From positions 3,798,994 through 3,862,993 of the forward strand of contig NZ_CP004387.1 of the NCBI RefSeq assembly GCF_000299335.2: a stretch of DNA of 64,000 nt. Direction: 5' to 3'. Source of the DNA: Isoalcanivorax pacificus W11-5. Lineage in GTDB: Bacteria; Pseudomonadota; Gammaproteobacteria; Pseudomonadales; Alcanivoracaceae. Positions within the stretch are counted from its first letter, which is position 1. Each line of letters begins with the position of its first letter. The translations under genes and the position numbers were made by a program. Positions 15,771-33,773 of the stretch are shown in pieces. The notes below the pieces were generated by a model, which saw nothing but the letters and a program-made list of their open reading frames with translations, searched no databases and was not told where the DNA came from.

Positions 15771-15779
15771 ATAAAAAAA

Positions 15780-15799
15780 TGGGCGCCTTTCGGCGCCCA
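15780..15799. terminator. bidirectional terminator, left copy
   Basis: TGGGCGCCTTTCGGCGCCCA, preceded by a run of A. With the right copy it forms the original convergent terminator between the START gene and amtB, now split by the 191-bp element. The two copies are identical over 20 bp, so the whole hairpin is the target duplication. Confidence 0.85.
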
Positions 15800-15990
15800 T
15801 CAGACTGAGGACAAACCCCTGTTTTTATGAATCACCTCTTCGAGGCGATATAAAAGTGGGTGGTCGCATTCCAGGTTGCAGCCCTATGGCTATGCAAGTG
15901 GAGGCTATCACCAGAAAAACAGCGACTCTTTGCCCTGGGTGGATAATTTTTTAGTAGAAGAATGGCTGCCGAGGTTTGTCAGCAGCCTGA
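15800..15990. mobile_element. 191-bp MITE with IS1182-like ends, copy 1
   Basis: A non-autonomous element bounded by TCAGACTGAGGACAAACC on the left and, in inverse complement, TCAGGCTGCTGACAAACC on the right. These resemble the ends of the IS1182-family element at 26561 (TCAGATCGCTGACAAACCCC). The body matches copy 2 (33338-33528) base for base as far as I can read. It encodes no full protein. It is flanked by 20-bp direct repeats that are complete terminator hairpins. It was probably moved in trans by an IS1182-type transposase. Confidence 0.85.
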
Positions 15991-16010
15991 TGGGCGCCTT
16001 TCGGCGCCCA
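15991..16010. terminator. bidirectional terminator, right copy
   Basis: Exact repeat of the hairpin at 15780-15799, followed by TTTT. It serves amtB transcripts arriving on the minus strand, or plus-strand readthrough of the element. Confidence 0.85.
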
Positions 16011-16037
16011 TTTTAGTCAAGCCAGTAACTGCATGGC

Positions 16038-24439: not shown

Positions 24440-26452
<2,013 letters not shown>

Positions 26453-26542
26453 GGTGTGAGCGATCTGGCGGGAAGCGCCATCAAGTGCCGGGCCACCCGC
26501 ACAACCCTGACAGAATACCCGCCCCGGATCGGACACAAAAAA

Positions 26543-26560
26543 GGCGCCTTGCAAGGCGCC
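26543..26560. terminator. bidirectional terminator, left copy
   Basis: GGCGCCTTGCAAGGCGCC, preceded by a run of A. It is the convergent terminator between rep and the small lipoprotein gene. An identical 18-bp copy lies at 28144-28161 beyond the IS. Confidence 0.85.
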
Positions 26561-28143
26561 TCAGATCGCTGACAAACCCCGGTTATCCGGGGTTTTTCAT
26601 TTCTGCAGTTGGGATGTGTGACGTTCGGCAGGTCATTTTCGCTGGGTGGGATAGTCGGCGACATGGCTTGATTCAGAGGGCCAAAGGGCGTTGCGGAAGC
26701 GAGGGAGGCTGGCATAGCGCCGGAGAGAGGGCCAGAGGGCTTCTTACCCTGCCAGCAAGGCGATTTTCTTGATGTTCTGAGCCGCCGCCGTCAGCAGACA
26801 CTGCGCCTGCACCTTGTCCCGGCCACGGTAGCGGGCATAGCGGTATTGATGCAGCTCCTTGGCGTCGGCGAAGCTGCGCTCCACCGTTTCTTTTCGGCGT
26901 TGGTAGATCGCCTTGCCCCATTCCGTCAGGCGGTGAGCATCCTGGCGTTCCCGGCTGTCTTCCCAGACATGGCGGGTGATGATCTTGATGTGTTTGGCGT
27001 GTTGGGTGCAGCGGGAGAGCAGCGGACATGCCTGGCAGATCGCCGGGTCTGACTGGTAGTGCCGGTAGCCTGTACGGCTGGTGGTTTTATAGGGCAAGTC
27101 CTGCCCTTGCGGGCACCGGTAGCTGTCGGTGTCGGGTTGGTAGTGGAATTCCCGCTTGTAGAGGTATCCCTTCCGGTGCGTGGGGCGACGGTAGCCAAAG
27201 ACGGCTTTGATCTGCTCGTCCTCCAGTCCCTTGCTGATCGCGGTGGTGTGGTAACCGGCATCCAGCCCGACATGAGTGACGTCGAACCCGAAGCGCTCTT
27301 TCTGCCGTCTCAGGCGGGCCATGTAGGGCACGGCATCGTGTACATTGCCCGCACTGACGTGCACATCGGTGATGATGTTGGCCTTGCTGTCCACAGTACG
27401 GTGATCCAGATAGAAGAACCCTTGGGGCTTGTTGTCCCGGGTCATGTAACCACTCTCAGGGTCCGTCGTGCTCTGCTTGATCTCCCGAGCCGCTGCCGGC
27501 CTGGACGCCGGCCGCAAGGGCTTTTTTCCGTGAGCTAACCGGTCCTCCTCCACTGCCCGATCCAGGTCATCCAGATACGCCTGCCGCAGGGGTTCAACCC
27601 GAGCCTTGGTCCACTTGCCCTTGTTGGCATTGGCCTTGAGGTGAGTAGAATCCGTGTACAACACCTCCCCGGACACCAGTTTGCGGCGCATCGCCTGCAA
27701 CACAATCTCGTCAAATATCTGCTGATAGATATCCGAGTCGTTGAACCGACGCCGACGGTTCTGGCTCAGGGTGCTGGCATCCGGCACCTTGTCCGTTAGC
27801 GTCAGCCCCAGAAACCACCGGTAGGCGACGTTCACCTGCACTTCCCGGATCAACTGACGTTCACTGCGAACACCGAACAGGTAACCCAGCAACAGCAGCT
27901 TGAACATCAGGGTCGGATCCAGTGCTGGCCGACCGTTGTCAGCACAGTACAACGCCTTCACCCGATCATGGATAAAGCTGAAGTCGATGTGTTTATCCAC
28001 CTTGCGAAGCAGGTGGTCCGGCGGGACAAGTTCATCAATACAGACGAACTCGAGTGTGGATTGGGTCGGAGCGCGGTCTTTTAGCATGCCCCGATTATAG
28101 AAAAGCCCTCACCACGAGGGCGAGGGCTTTGTCAGCAGTCTGA
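26561..28143. mobile_element. complete IS1182-family insertion sequence, 1583 bp
   Basis: Terminal inverted repeats are TCAGATCGCTGACAAACCCC on the left and, in inverse complement, TCAGACTGCTGACAAAGCCC on the right (17 of 20 match). A single full-length transposase gene lies inside on the minus strand. Both ends carry an inner hairpin next to the repeat: AACCCCGG/CCGGGGTT plus T5 on the left, and AAAGCCCTC/GAGGGCTTT on the right. These may block outside transcription. The flanking 18-bp direct repeat is a whole terminator hairpin. All parts look intact, so the element may be active. Confidence 0.93.
26744..28087 (-). CDS. IS1182 family transposase
   Basis: A 447-residue DDE transposase. The N-terminus MLKDRAPTQSTLEFVCIDEL, the stretch VNVAYRWFLGLTLTDKVPDASTLSQNRRRRF and LYTDSTHLKANANKGK (containing a catalytic Asp) are typical of IS1182 transposases. 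A cysteine-rich zinc-ribbon-like section (CPQGQDL...CQACPLLSRC) precedes the C-terminus FADAKELHQYRYARYRGRDKV. The frame is complete, with its start 56 bases inside one IS end. It may also act on the two MITEs in this window. Confidence 0.95.
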   Translation of the reverse strand: MLKDRAPTQSTLEFVCIDELVPPDHLLRKVDKHIDFSFIHDRVKALYCADNGRPALDPTLMFKLLLLGYLFGVRSERQLIREVQVNVAYRWFLGLTLTDKVPDASTLSQNRRRRFNDSDIYQQIFDEIVLQAMRRKLVSGEVLYTDSTHLKANANKGKWTKARVEPLRQAYLDDLDRAVEEDRLAHGKKPLRPASRPAAAREIKQSTTDPESGYMTRDNKPQGFFYLDHRTVDSKANIITDVHVSAGNVHDAVPYMARLRRQKERFGFDVTHVGLDAGYHTTAISKGLEDEQIKAVFGYRRPTHRKGYLYKREFHYQPDTDSYRCPQGQDLPYKTTSRTGYRHYQSDPAICQACPLLSRCTQHAKHIKIITRHVWEDSRERQDAHRLTEWGKAIYQRRKETVERSFADAKELHQYRYARYRGRDKVQAQCLLTAAAQNIKKIALLAG

Positions 28144-28161
28144 GGCGCCTTGCAAGGCGCC
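28144..28161. terminator. bidirectional terminator, right copy
   Basis: Exact copy of the 26543-26560 hairpin, followed by T6. It remains a good terminator for readthrough from the element side, while the left copy still terminates rep. Confidence 0.85.
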
Positions 28162-28183
28162 TTTTTTATTTCATCCCCGGAGC

Positions 28184-28360
28184 CTACTGCTCCTCCACCG
28201 GCTCTTCCATCGGCAGCGGCAGGTCTTCCGGCTCCACCATTGGTGGCGCCTCCTGCCGTACACCGCCTTCCAGTACCGGTTCCGGCGGTGCCGGCGGCTC
28301 ATTGTTCTCCGAGCAGGCCGCCAGCAACGTCAGCAGGGCAAGGGCCGCGATGCCACGCAT
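28184..28360 (-). CDS. small proline/glutamate-rich lipoprotein
   Basis: A 58-residue protein. The signal sequence MRGIAALALLTLLAAC carries a clear lipobox (LAAC, Cys16). The mature part is short and low-complexity, rich in Pro and Glu (ENNEPPAPPEPVLEGG...EEPVEEQ). It starts 6 bases after the cytochrome c5 stop on the same strand, so the two are probably co-transcribed. The function is unknown; it might be a small outer-membrane tether or spacer. Confidence 0.7.
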   Translation of the reverse strand: MRGIAALALLTLLAACSENNEPPAPPEPVLEGGVRQEAPPMVEPEDLPLPMEEPVEEQ

Positions 28361-28366
28361 GGAGGC

Positions 28367-28834
28367 TTACTTGGCCTGGTCGGTCAGGTATTTCACAGCG
28401 GCGTGGATCTCGTCTTCAGAGCAGTCCATGCACATGCCCTTCGGCGGCATGGCACCGAAGCCACCCCAGGTGTGCTCGAACAGGGTATCCATGCCTTTTG
28501 CCAGACGCGGTGCCCAGGCGGCCTTGTCGCCGGTCTTCGGCGCGCCGGCAGCACCGGTGCCGTGGCAGGCGGTGCAGGCGCTGTTGTAGACCTGCTCGCC
28601 ACTGCGCGGGCCGCTGGCAGCGCCACCGGCGTCGGCCACGTCAGCACCACACTCTTCACCTTCGACACACACCGAACCCACCGGCTTGATACGGTCAGCA
28701 ATGGCGCGCTCGCTGAACACAGAGCGGTCGCCCAGACCGTAGGGAGAGATTTCCTGGGTGGTACGGGCACCGTAGGTCACGCCTGCAAGCAGGGTGGCGA
28801 AGACGGCAAGTGCAGCTACTACAAACTTGTTCAC
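28367..28834 (-). CDS. cytochrome c5 family protein
   Basis: A 155-residue periplasmic c-type cytochrome. Translation most likely starts at GTG (28834) after GAGG. The N-terminal segment VVAALAVFATLLAGVTYG is a signal or anchor. The haem site is CTACH (87-91) and the axial Met is in GAMPPKG. The later Cys pair (GMCMDCSEDE) is typical of the cytochrome c5 group. It is a soluble electron carrier towards terminal oxidases or peroxidases. The small lipoprotein gene follows. Confidence 0.9.
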   Translation of the reverse strand: MNKFVVAALAVFATLLAGVTYGARTTQEISPYGLGDRSVFSERAIADRIKPVGSVCVEGEECGADVADAGGAASGPRSGEQVYNSACTACHGTGAAGAPKTGDKAAWAPRLAKGMDTLFEHTWGGFGAMPPKGMCMDCSEDEIHAAVKYLTDQAK

Positions 28835-28977
28835 GGTGAATACCTCGTCTCGGTATAGGAGTGGCGGGGTGGCCAATCAGGCCTGCGCGGACTGGCCGCC
28901 ACTGACCCGGCGGGCGCGATTATACCCATTCAATCGCTCAGGTTAAATGCACCTGCCCGGGGCCACCTGCCCAGGGT

Positions 28978-33042: not shown

Positions 33043-33181
33043 GGAATTTCTCCTGATCAACACCCGGGCTCGTCATCCAGTGGCTACGCCGGAAACCCGA
33101 AAGAGACGTCGCCGGCGAGGAATATAGACGGCCGGGGAGCATTTTCAAGAGAGGGGATGGCTTGGCGTGCGGTCAGGAGAA
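33043..33181 (-). promoter_or_regulatory. leader region of the SMR exporter gene
   Basis: On the minus strand the segment 33062-33105 reads ...GTTTCCGGC-GTA-GCCACTGG...AGCCCGGG. It has words found in guanidine-I (ykkC) riboswitches, which often control Gdx exporters. However, the region is far shorter than a full ykkC aptamer and key joins are missing. I list it as a possible regulatory leader only. Confidence 0.25.
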
Positions 33182-33321
33182 GGCCGCGTCAGCGGTCCTT
33201 CCATATATATTGGTGCACCCGACTGGGCGAAGGCGGGGTTTGCCGAAGCACCGCTTCGGCCCGCCTGAGCGCCCCGAGCCTACCGGCGAGGGGCCGGCAA
33301 TCCAGGGGGGCAAAAAGAAAA

Positions 33322-33337
33322 GGCCGCGTCAGCGGCC
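33322..33337 (-). terminator. terminator hairpin, left copy at MITE 2
   Basis: GGCCGCGTCAGCGGCC, with a T-rich tract on the minus strand. It is an exact 16-bp repeat of 33529-33544 on the other side of MITE copy 2. Confidence 0.75.
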
Positions 33338-33528
33338 CCAGACTGAGGACAAACCCCTGTTTTTATGAATCACCTCTTCGAGGCGATATAAAAGTGGGTG
33401 GTCGCATTCCAGGTTGCAGCCCTATGGCTATGCAAGTGGAGGCTATCACCAGAAAAACAGCGACTCTTTGCCCTGGGTGGATAATTTTTTAGTAGAAGAA
33501 TGGCTGCCGAGGTTTGTCAGCAGCCTGA
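33338..33528. mobile_element. 191-bp MITE with IS1182-like ends, copy 2
   Basis: Same element as at 15800-15990. The first base is C instead of T; otherwise I find no difference, so the copies moved recently. It is again inserted in a terminator hairpin that is duplicated in full (16 bp). This hairpin belongs to the repeat unit behind tRNA-Arg. On the minus strand a 50-codon frame without a good start runs through most of it (ending [20 protein letters not shown] and a few more residues); it is probably not a gene. Confidence 0.85.
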
Positions 33529-33544
33529 GGCCGCGTCAGCGGCC
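33529..33544 (-). terminator. terminator hairpin, right copy at MITE 2
   Basis: GGCCGCGTCAGCGGCC, identical to the left copy. It also begins the second tRNA-end repeat unit. Confidence 0.75.
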
Positions 33545-33667
33545 CTTCCTTATGTATTGGTGCACCCGACTGGGCGAAGGCGGGGGTTTGCCGAAGCACC
33601 GCTTCGGCCCGCCTGAGCGCCCCGAGCCTACCGGCGAGGGGCCGGCAATCCAGGGGACAAAAGAAAA

Positions 33668-33683
33668 GGCCGCGTCAGCGGCC
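33668..33683 (-). terminator. terminator of tRNA-Arg
   Basis: GGCCGCGTCAGCGGCC lies 13 bases beyond the tRNA 3' end, followed on the minus strand by TTTTCTTTT. It is the parental hairpin repeated in the downstream units. Confidence 0.85.
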
Positions 33684-33696
33684 CTTCCTTATATAT

Positions 33697-33773
33697 TGGT
33701 GCACCCGACTGGATTCGAACCAGTGACCCCTGCCTTCGGAGGGCAGTACTCTATCCAGCTGAGCTACGGGTGC
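33697..33773 (-). tRNA. tRNA-Arg (anticodon CCG)
   Basis: A 77-nt tRNA with encoded CCA. The acceptor stem is GCACCCG/CGGGTGC, the D arm contains AGCTCAGCTGGATAGAGT, and the anticodon stem CTGCC/GGCAG encloses the loop CTCCGAA, giving anticodon CCG (codon CGG). The T arm is CTGGTTCGAATCCAG. All stems pair. Its 3' end is repeated downstream. Confidence 0.97.

Follow-up and report, generated by a model that had tools for sequence, protein, structure and literature searches.

The stretch analysed here, referred to as the window, comprises 64,000 nucleotides of the genome of Isoalcanivorax pacificus W11-5 (NZ_CP004387.1, positions 3,798,994 to 3,862,993 of the forward strand). It carries, between a helicase gene and two opposing reading frames, a 1581-bp insertion sequence (IS) of the IS1182 family, bounded on each side by an exact copy of one whole terminator-like hairpin. 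The features of the locus, in window coordinates, are as follows:

24440-26452, plus strand: UvrD/Rep helicase gene, the left neighbour (Pfam UvrD-helicase, E = 4.4e-89)
26542-26561, unstranded: left copy of the duplicated terminator hairpin, AGGCGCCTTGCAAGGCGCCT, 20 bp (exact direct repeat with 28143-28162)
26562-28142, minus strand: IS1182-family insertion sequence, 1581 bp, with CAGA...TCTG ends (three identical copies in the genome; end type as in relatives)
26562-26577, plus strand: terminal inverted repeat past the 3' end of the transposase gene (13/16 matches with 28127-28142 in the CAG...CTG register)
26744-28087, minus strand: transposase, 447 aa, IS1182 family (NF033551; Pfam DUF772 and DDE_Tnp_1_6)
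28127-28142, minus strand: terminal inverted repeat on the transposase start side (paired with 26562-26577)
28143-28162, unstranded: right copy of the duplicated terminator hairpin, 20 bp (exact direct repeat with 26542-26561)
28184-28360, minus strand: lipoprotein-like reading frame, 58 aa, the nearest opposing frame
28367-28876, minus strand: cytochrome c gene, the next opposing gene (Pfam Cytochrome_CBB3, E = 1.3e-16)

The element is a member of the IS1182 family by its score against the curated NCBIfam profile NF033551 (E = 1e-146; 489.7 bits, above the cut-off of 270), and the Pfam families DUF772, DDE_Tnp_1 and DDE_Tnp_1_6 were matched in its transposase. The single 447-aa open reading frame fills most of the IS. 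The ends were fixed at CAG...CTG by comparing copies, since the terminal T/A is common to the flanks and one site alone is ambiguous. A structure of the transposase predicted from a six-sequence input had a mean predicted local distance difference test score (pLDDT) of 40 and was too poor for use. The opposing lipoprotein gene mentioned in a first-pass annotation of this DNA corresponds to the 58-aa frame, which contains the motif LLAAC, presumably a lipobox.

The same annotation had described the IS as flanked by two copies of an entire terminator hairpin, in the form of an 18-bp repeat. Both copies were confirmed, and the 18-bp motif, GGCGCCTTGCAAGGCGCC, is present exactly at 26543-26560 and 28144-28161; its length needed correction, the full exact repeat being 20 bp and the 18-bp motif its G-C-bounded part. 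At up to three mismatches the motif was found at just these two places in the window, and two occurrences were found in 0/100 shuffles. The sequence flanking the site has an A-run on the left and a T-run on the right.

A search of the whole genome (4.17 Mb, one contig) yielded three identical full copies of the IS and one 42-bp partial match. All three copies sit between converging reading frames, and their duplications, read in the orientation of the transposase, are AGGCGCCTTGCAAGGCGCCT, AAAGGCGCCACAGGCGCCTTT and AAAGGCGCCAGTATCGGCGCCTTT (20, 21 and 24 bp), each of them one whole hairpin. Because GGCGCC occurs twice in every one of these three sites, they cannot by themselves tell a sequence target from a structural one. 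The partial match (L004, at G000:C1:3773993-3774034, outside the window) is similar to the terminator inside the IS end, and may be a remnant or an unrelated terminator.

Two copies of a second, shorter element were identified in the window by a search for ends of the IS type:

15779-15800, unstranded: left hairpin duplication of the first short element, ATGGGCGCCTTTCGGCGCCCAT (L129)
15801-15989, plus strand: first short element, 189 bp, with IS1182-type ends CAGACTGAGGACAAA...TTTGTCAGCAGCCTG
15990-16011, unstranded: right hairpin duplication of the first short element (L129)
33321-33338, unstranded: left hairpin duplication of the second short element, AGGCCGCGTCAGCGGCCC (L128)
33339-33527, plus strand: second copy of the 189-bp element
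33528-33545, unstranded: right hairpin duplication of the second short element (L128)

Counting these two, the genome contains eight copies of the 189-bp element, all identical. Its length leaves no room for a transposase gene, its ends are of the IS1182 type (two and one mismatches in 15 to the transposase-start end of the IS) and its target duplications are of the kind seen at the IS; these sequence features identify it as a miniature inverted-repeat transposable element (MITE) of this IS group. The enzyme that moves it in trans is most likely the window transposase or one closely related to it. Hairpins adjoin all eight copies and exact duplications were found at seven (18, 22, 21, 25, 25, 25 and 20 bp), while the eighth site (L133) has one hairpin type on both sides, with changes in one arm. 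GGCGCC is absent from 7/8 MITE sites. All 11 insertions in the genome (3 IS and 8 MITE) are at hairpins, 10/11 with exact whole-hairpin duplications of 18-25 bp. The "three sites in this window" to which the first-pass annotation referred are most likely the IS and the two MITEs, with their 22-bp and 18-bp hairpin duplications.

Relatives were collected from genome contigs (24 loci), plasmids and genome searches. Plasmid records with a match numbered 1853 in one search and 1742 in another; 25 regions were taken, picked by identity class and copy number with the flanks unseen at the time of choice. In genome samples searched at E 1e-100, matches were found in 5/390 of the order and 1/369 of the class, the latter being the I. 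pacificus genome itself. Viral contigs gave two pattern matches, neither encoding a relative, and among E. coli genomes the Klebsiella element had no match, and the Salmonella element a single partial one covering 61% of the query. A locus of Alcanivorax sp. S71-1-4 (L013) has a partial transposase 96% identical to that of the window. An automatic end-caller retained 47 distinct sites with 39-100% transposase identity, those of the three IS copies of I. pacificus included. It left out 35 rows, comprising partial or cut transposases, second hits to one element, six distant elements (25-31%) and unpairable ends (L034, L071, L085, L098 and L110, of which L034 and L071 are other views of kept elements and L085 is one member of the tandem pair retained under L082).

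Seven of the 47 sites are contig-end halves from Zhongshania, where three hairpins are found at both a left and a right half and one at a right half only. The other 40 have two flanks; they are not independent draws, several sharing a plasmid or a close element. The exact direct repeat is one whole hairpin in 29/40 (16-30 bp, at 41-100% transposase identity, the three of I. pacificus included), so that the other copies behave as the first-pass annotation had anticipated. The 11 inexact sites were classed by eye. Three are near-exact duplications, with a one-base shift (L091), an inverted loop (L051) or differences between the copies at 3/16 positions (L113, where the end-caller itself detected no hairpin). 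Another site, L082/L085, is a tandem pair of elements with a 31-bp hairpin repeat at its outer ends. A variable target duplication, as expected of the IS1182 family, was found over these IS sites (16-31 bp) and in the I. pacificus genome alone (18-25 bp).

At five further sites (L005, L087, L089, L108 and L111) the two ends have unlike hairpins. On one Providencia plasmid, the oppositely oriented copies L087 and L089 show an exact, reciprocal swap of their hairpins, and at L108 and L111 two copies of one hairpin stand in inverted orientation. These arrangements are what recombination leaves behind when each of the copies involved had a hairpin duplication to begin with. Exact ends, MITEs and past recombination between copies can be located in practice by way of hairpin duplications.

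Two of the sites named above are on the Salmonella plasmid CP053580.1. The tandem pair occupies 74808-77719, and about 23 bp of one element end are missing where the two copies meet. In the 90514 region, the IS of L051 is at the centre of a long inverted repeat, one flank being the reverse complement of the other; the two copies of the duplicated hairpin have their loops in opposite orientation.

Statistics were computed for the 37 exact duplications (29 IS sites, the tandem pair and 7 MITE sites), except that A bias, flanking runs and stems were counted over the 30 IS sites (29 and the tandem pair). The duplications average 21.2 bp (range 16-31) and all 37 are distinct in sequence; GGCGCC is present in 4/37. 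Symmetric positions were paired in 315/328 cases, against 94.7 (standard deviation 8.6, maximum 120) in 1000 shuffles, and pairing reached at least 85% in 37/37 duplications, against 1.6e-5 to 2.7e-3 of same-length words of the window. The duplication centre fell on the hairpin axis, located independently of the duplication, with an offset of 0 in 37/37. The earlier description of sites that share symmetry and not sequence extends to the whole set, all of it hairpin-centred. Duplication length also followed hairpin length, as had been proposed: it correlated with the G-C-bounded hairpin span (r 0.69), and 1/20,000 permutations gave a value as high.

The edges of the duplications lie 1 nt outside the outermost G-C pair at 22/37 sites, 2-3 nt outside at 10/37 and inside it at 5/37. 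The first base inward is A at 58/60 edges, and other positions inside the duplication carry at most 0.7 bit. The stem is 8 bp long at 17/30 IS sites and the duplication 19-21 bp at 19/30. A run of four T or A is present on at least one flank at 29/30 IS sites and on both flanks at 16/30; by this measure the target sites look like terminators, many of them bidirectional. Two simple rules for the cut were rejected, a stagger of fixed length by the 16-31 bp range, and a cut at the foot of the maximal stem by the pairs outside, which are usually excluded. The comparison of sites shows the duplication to be one hairpin, centred on its axis, 16-31 bp long, specific in sequence to each site and bounded for the most part 1-3 nt beyond the G-C stem, 5' of an A. 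By the same comparison, the 189-bp MITE, with its closely similar ends, is shown to duplicate hairpins likewise.

Sites without the element bear on the supposition that empty sites are terminators, and two plasmid sites of this kind each hold one hairpin. An IncC plasmid without the element (L063) has AGGCGCTGACGCGCCT (16 bp) once, and the same sequence occurs twice, around the element, at L049. The E. faecium plasmid NZ_CP018130.1 (L137) has AGATAGGCTAAACCTATCT (19 bp) once, and L097 has it twice. In a sister genome (G035), single and somewhat diverged terminator-like hairpins lie at the homologues of IS sites 1 and 3; at a contig end of that genome, an end of this same IS adjoins a further hairpin, AGGGCGGAAAATTCCGCCCT. 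A paralogous empty site is present in the window itself:

33667-33684, unstranded: uninterrupted single hairpin of the second MITE's site (neighbouring unit of a tandem repeat)

The second MITE of the window is inside a tandem array beside tRNA-Arg, and it is another unit of this array that has the hairpin once, uninterrupted. The array (33160-33773) is made of units of about 140 bp, each with a terminator-like hairpin and a piece that looks like the end of tRNA-Arg, whose gene lies alongside at 33697-33773 (minus strand). The MITE interrupts one tandem unit, and the array resembles partial duplications of tRNA 3' ends.

DDE transposases normally produce a short target duplication of nearly fixed length, the stagger being set by the enzyme. 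In contrast, identical elements have duplications of 18-25 bp in the genome studied here and relatives have duplications of 16-31 bp, each of them one exact hairpin. Since the duplications of identical elements differ in length and match the hairpin, the enzyme seems not to impose the stagger. We consider it probable that the element inserts at hairpins, here nearly always terminator-like, and duplicates the whole stem-loop by attack at a cruciform junction. The hairpin would extrude as a cruciform and create a four-way junction. At this junction the DDE transposase would join each 3' end of the element to one strand of the target, at the 5' foot of the hairpin. The two joints would always be close in space, whatever the length of the arm, and gap repair would copy the whole arm to both sides. 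The varied sequence of the sites, the trend in length and the single-hairpin empty sites support a structural rather than a fixed-sequence target, as the first-pass annotation had it, and suggest that the enzyme recognises DNA shape rather than DNA sequence.

A broader proposal is that a subgroup of IS1182 elements, found in Proteobacteria and Firmicutes, picks its targets by shape alone, the four-way junction being recognised and strand transfer taking place at both 5' feet; we judge the chances that this holds and that it fails to be about equal. If true, the target arm rather than the enzyme would set the length of the duplication, and insertions would mark cruciform sites in living cells. 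The range of duplication lengths, each one exact hairpin, makes the published idea of cruciform-directed transposition directly testable with one small element and designed targets. A length set by the hairpin would also explain the duplications of 2-60 bp cited from ISfinder for the IS1182 family (PMC7335449).

Attack at a cruciform junction is deduced from sequence comparison, and extrusion in cells is presumed. Several observations weigh against it. At the 5/37 sites with an inside edge the outer G-C pair is excluded from the duplication, and at 26/30 IS sites at least one further pair lies beyond it, outward A-T pairs being usually excluded. Length and hairpin span are correlated weakly, with r 0.45 (n=10), when the I. 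pacificus genome is taken on its own. G035, the sister genome, lacks a comparable hairpin at the homologue of IS site 2 and offers no clean empty site there. A single flank carries a hairpin at one E. faecium site (L107), and L104 (S. simulans plasmid NZ_CP023496.1, 107209-108519) is alone among the 40 in having none at either end. Lastly, the A bias continues beyond the duplication, the first two bases outside carrying 1.30 and 1.01 bits. As a separate observation, a 5-bp direct repeat, ATCTA, is present at L104, possibly by chance.

The continuing A bias can be used by the main rival to the cruciform model, that of duplex recognition, in which no cruciform forms and each transposase subunit reads the boundary between an A-tract and G-C-rich sequence, terminators providing two such boundaries, inverted and at a tolerable spacing. 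The A at nearly every edge, the A-rich bases just outside, the position of the cut in or beside the A-tract and not at the maximal stem end, and the concentration of IS-site duplications at 19-21 bp would all be accounted for. However, a four-A/T run is present on both sides at just the 16/30 sites mentioned, against 29/30 with one on at least one side; a spacing of 16-31 bp would have to be bridged by a rigid complex on linear DNA; and the centre is exactly on the inverted-repeat axis in all 37 duplications. We regard duplex recognition of paired A-tract/G-C boundaries as unlikely.

Very unlikely, in our estimate, is that termination itself marks the target, with a paused polymerase, an R-loop or an RNA hairpin attracting the transposase. 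The A- or T-runs of at least four beside the hairpin at 29/30 sites, as in terminators, and the position of the three I. pacificus IS copies between converging frames agree with it, but symmetric cutting at both feet, on both strands, is left unexplained. Nor were all the hairpins targeted by IS1272 and TnSha1 confirmed as terminators, RNA-seq having confirmed 5/7 and one being in a coding region (PMC4923244). Reading of GGCGCC or a similar motif, suggested by the two copies in each I. pacificus IS site, is refuted by the seven of eight MITE sites that lack it and by its presence in just four of the 37 duplications, and has practically no chance of being right. The notion that the hairpins belong to the element and travel with it, prompted by a hairpin next to nearly every element end, is likewise refuted and can be dismissed with near certainty, identical elements having different hairpins at different sites and empty sites containing the hairpin once.

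The claim that the genes on either side each keep a working terminator was not borne out. In a consensus terminator scan the left hairpin copy was detected on the minus strand only and the right copy on the plus strand only, both reading out of the element; the gene-proximal copies have lost the T-tract in the direction of the neighbouring gene. Two further hairpins were detected by the scan inside the IS:

26574-26595, plus strand: terminator-like hairpin just within the rep-side IS end, oriented into the element
28105-28121, minus strand: terminator-like hairpin just within the lipoprotein/cytochrome-side IS end, oriented into the element

An inward hairpin with a T-rich tail (at least 6 pairs, with 4 or more T among the 10 bases around the 3' edge) was found at the transposase-start end in 24/31 distinct elements and at the other end in 29/31; shuffles of those stretches gave 4%. 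Transcription running into the IS is probably halted by its inner hairpins, and transcription running out of it by the duplicated ones, so that the burden on the host would be small. This would give the simple picture of a mobile element doing little harm on insertion, since it uses terminators and brings terminator-like hairpins of its own.

Targeting of hairpins or terminators by IS1182 members is already published (PMC3098183, PMC4923244, PMC5678879). For ISCbo5, an IS1182-family element of Clostridium botulinum group III and C. novyi, all insertion sites but one are described as hairpin-forming inverted repeats at gene ends, likely transcription stop signals, with the term "surrounding hairpin" (PMC3098183). 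ISCbo5 resembles the IS of the window in family and in hairpin sites, the two being compared by description and not by sequence, and may well behave in the same way. The staphylococcal elements IS1272, TnSha1 and TnSha2, also of the IS1182 family, are reported to target a hairpin without a common sequence, often a terminator, and to delete or replace it, without target duplication, IS1272 and TnSha1 deleting part of it (PMC4923244, PMC5678879). The IS of the window differs in that it keeps the hairpin on both sides as an exact duplication. A review statement that some IS1182 members target palindromes is cited in both of these papers (PMC4923244, PMC5678879).

The outcome found here was drawn as a possibility by Wan et al. 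(2017), in whose Fig 13 (pathway b) the element's 3' ends attack at the 5' feet of a cruciform, with the whole stem-loop duplicated as the result (PMC5678879). That pathway is placed beside the stem-loop-replacing one proposed for IS1272 and is hypothetical, the Discussion text of the article giving no example of it (PMC5678879). The sites of the window IS, the MITEs and the relatives fit its prediction. In the literature searched, which did not extend to ISfinder and most subscription papers, no demonstration was found of exact, clade-wide duplication of whole hairpins or of a MITE doing likewise.

A whole repeat is also duplicated when Cas1-Cas2 integrates a spacer by staggered attack at the repeat edges. 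In the Cas1-Cas2 case the enzyme is different, the repeat has a fixed length and the leader is sequence-specific.

In a small FastTree tree, the hairpin-duplicating group (41-100% identity) stands apart from seven distant transposases (22-31%) with a local support of 0.997. The seven include an ISCfr1-like and an ISPa22-like transposase and a fabI-linked one of S. haemolyticus, presumably that of IS1272, which is 22% identical to the window transposase. No hairpin duplication was found for these seven IS1182-annotated elements at ends guessed from inverted repeats and unconfirmed, and a 4-bp repeat is tabulated for ISCaa15, another IS1182 element (PMC3196728). Because of these seven elements and of ISCaa15, whole-hairpin duplication is, as judged from the sequences compared, a trait of a clade and not of the entire IS1182 family. 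Within the clade, L094 belongs to the ISBspe1 family by its plasmid annotation, with 58% transposase identity to the window element and an exact hairpin duplication. L097, likewise with an exact hairpin duplication, equals the ISEfa7-annotated records in identity to the window transposase (41%).

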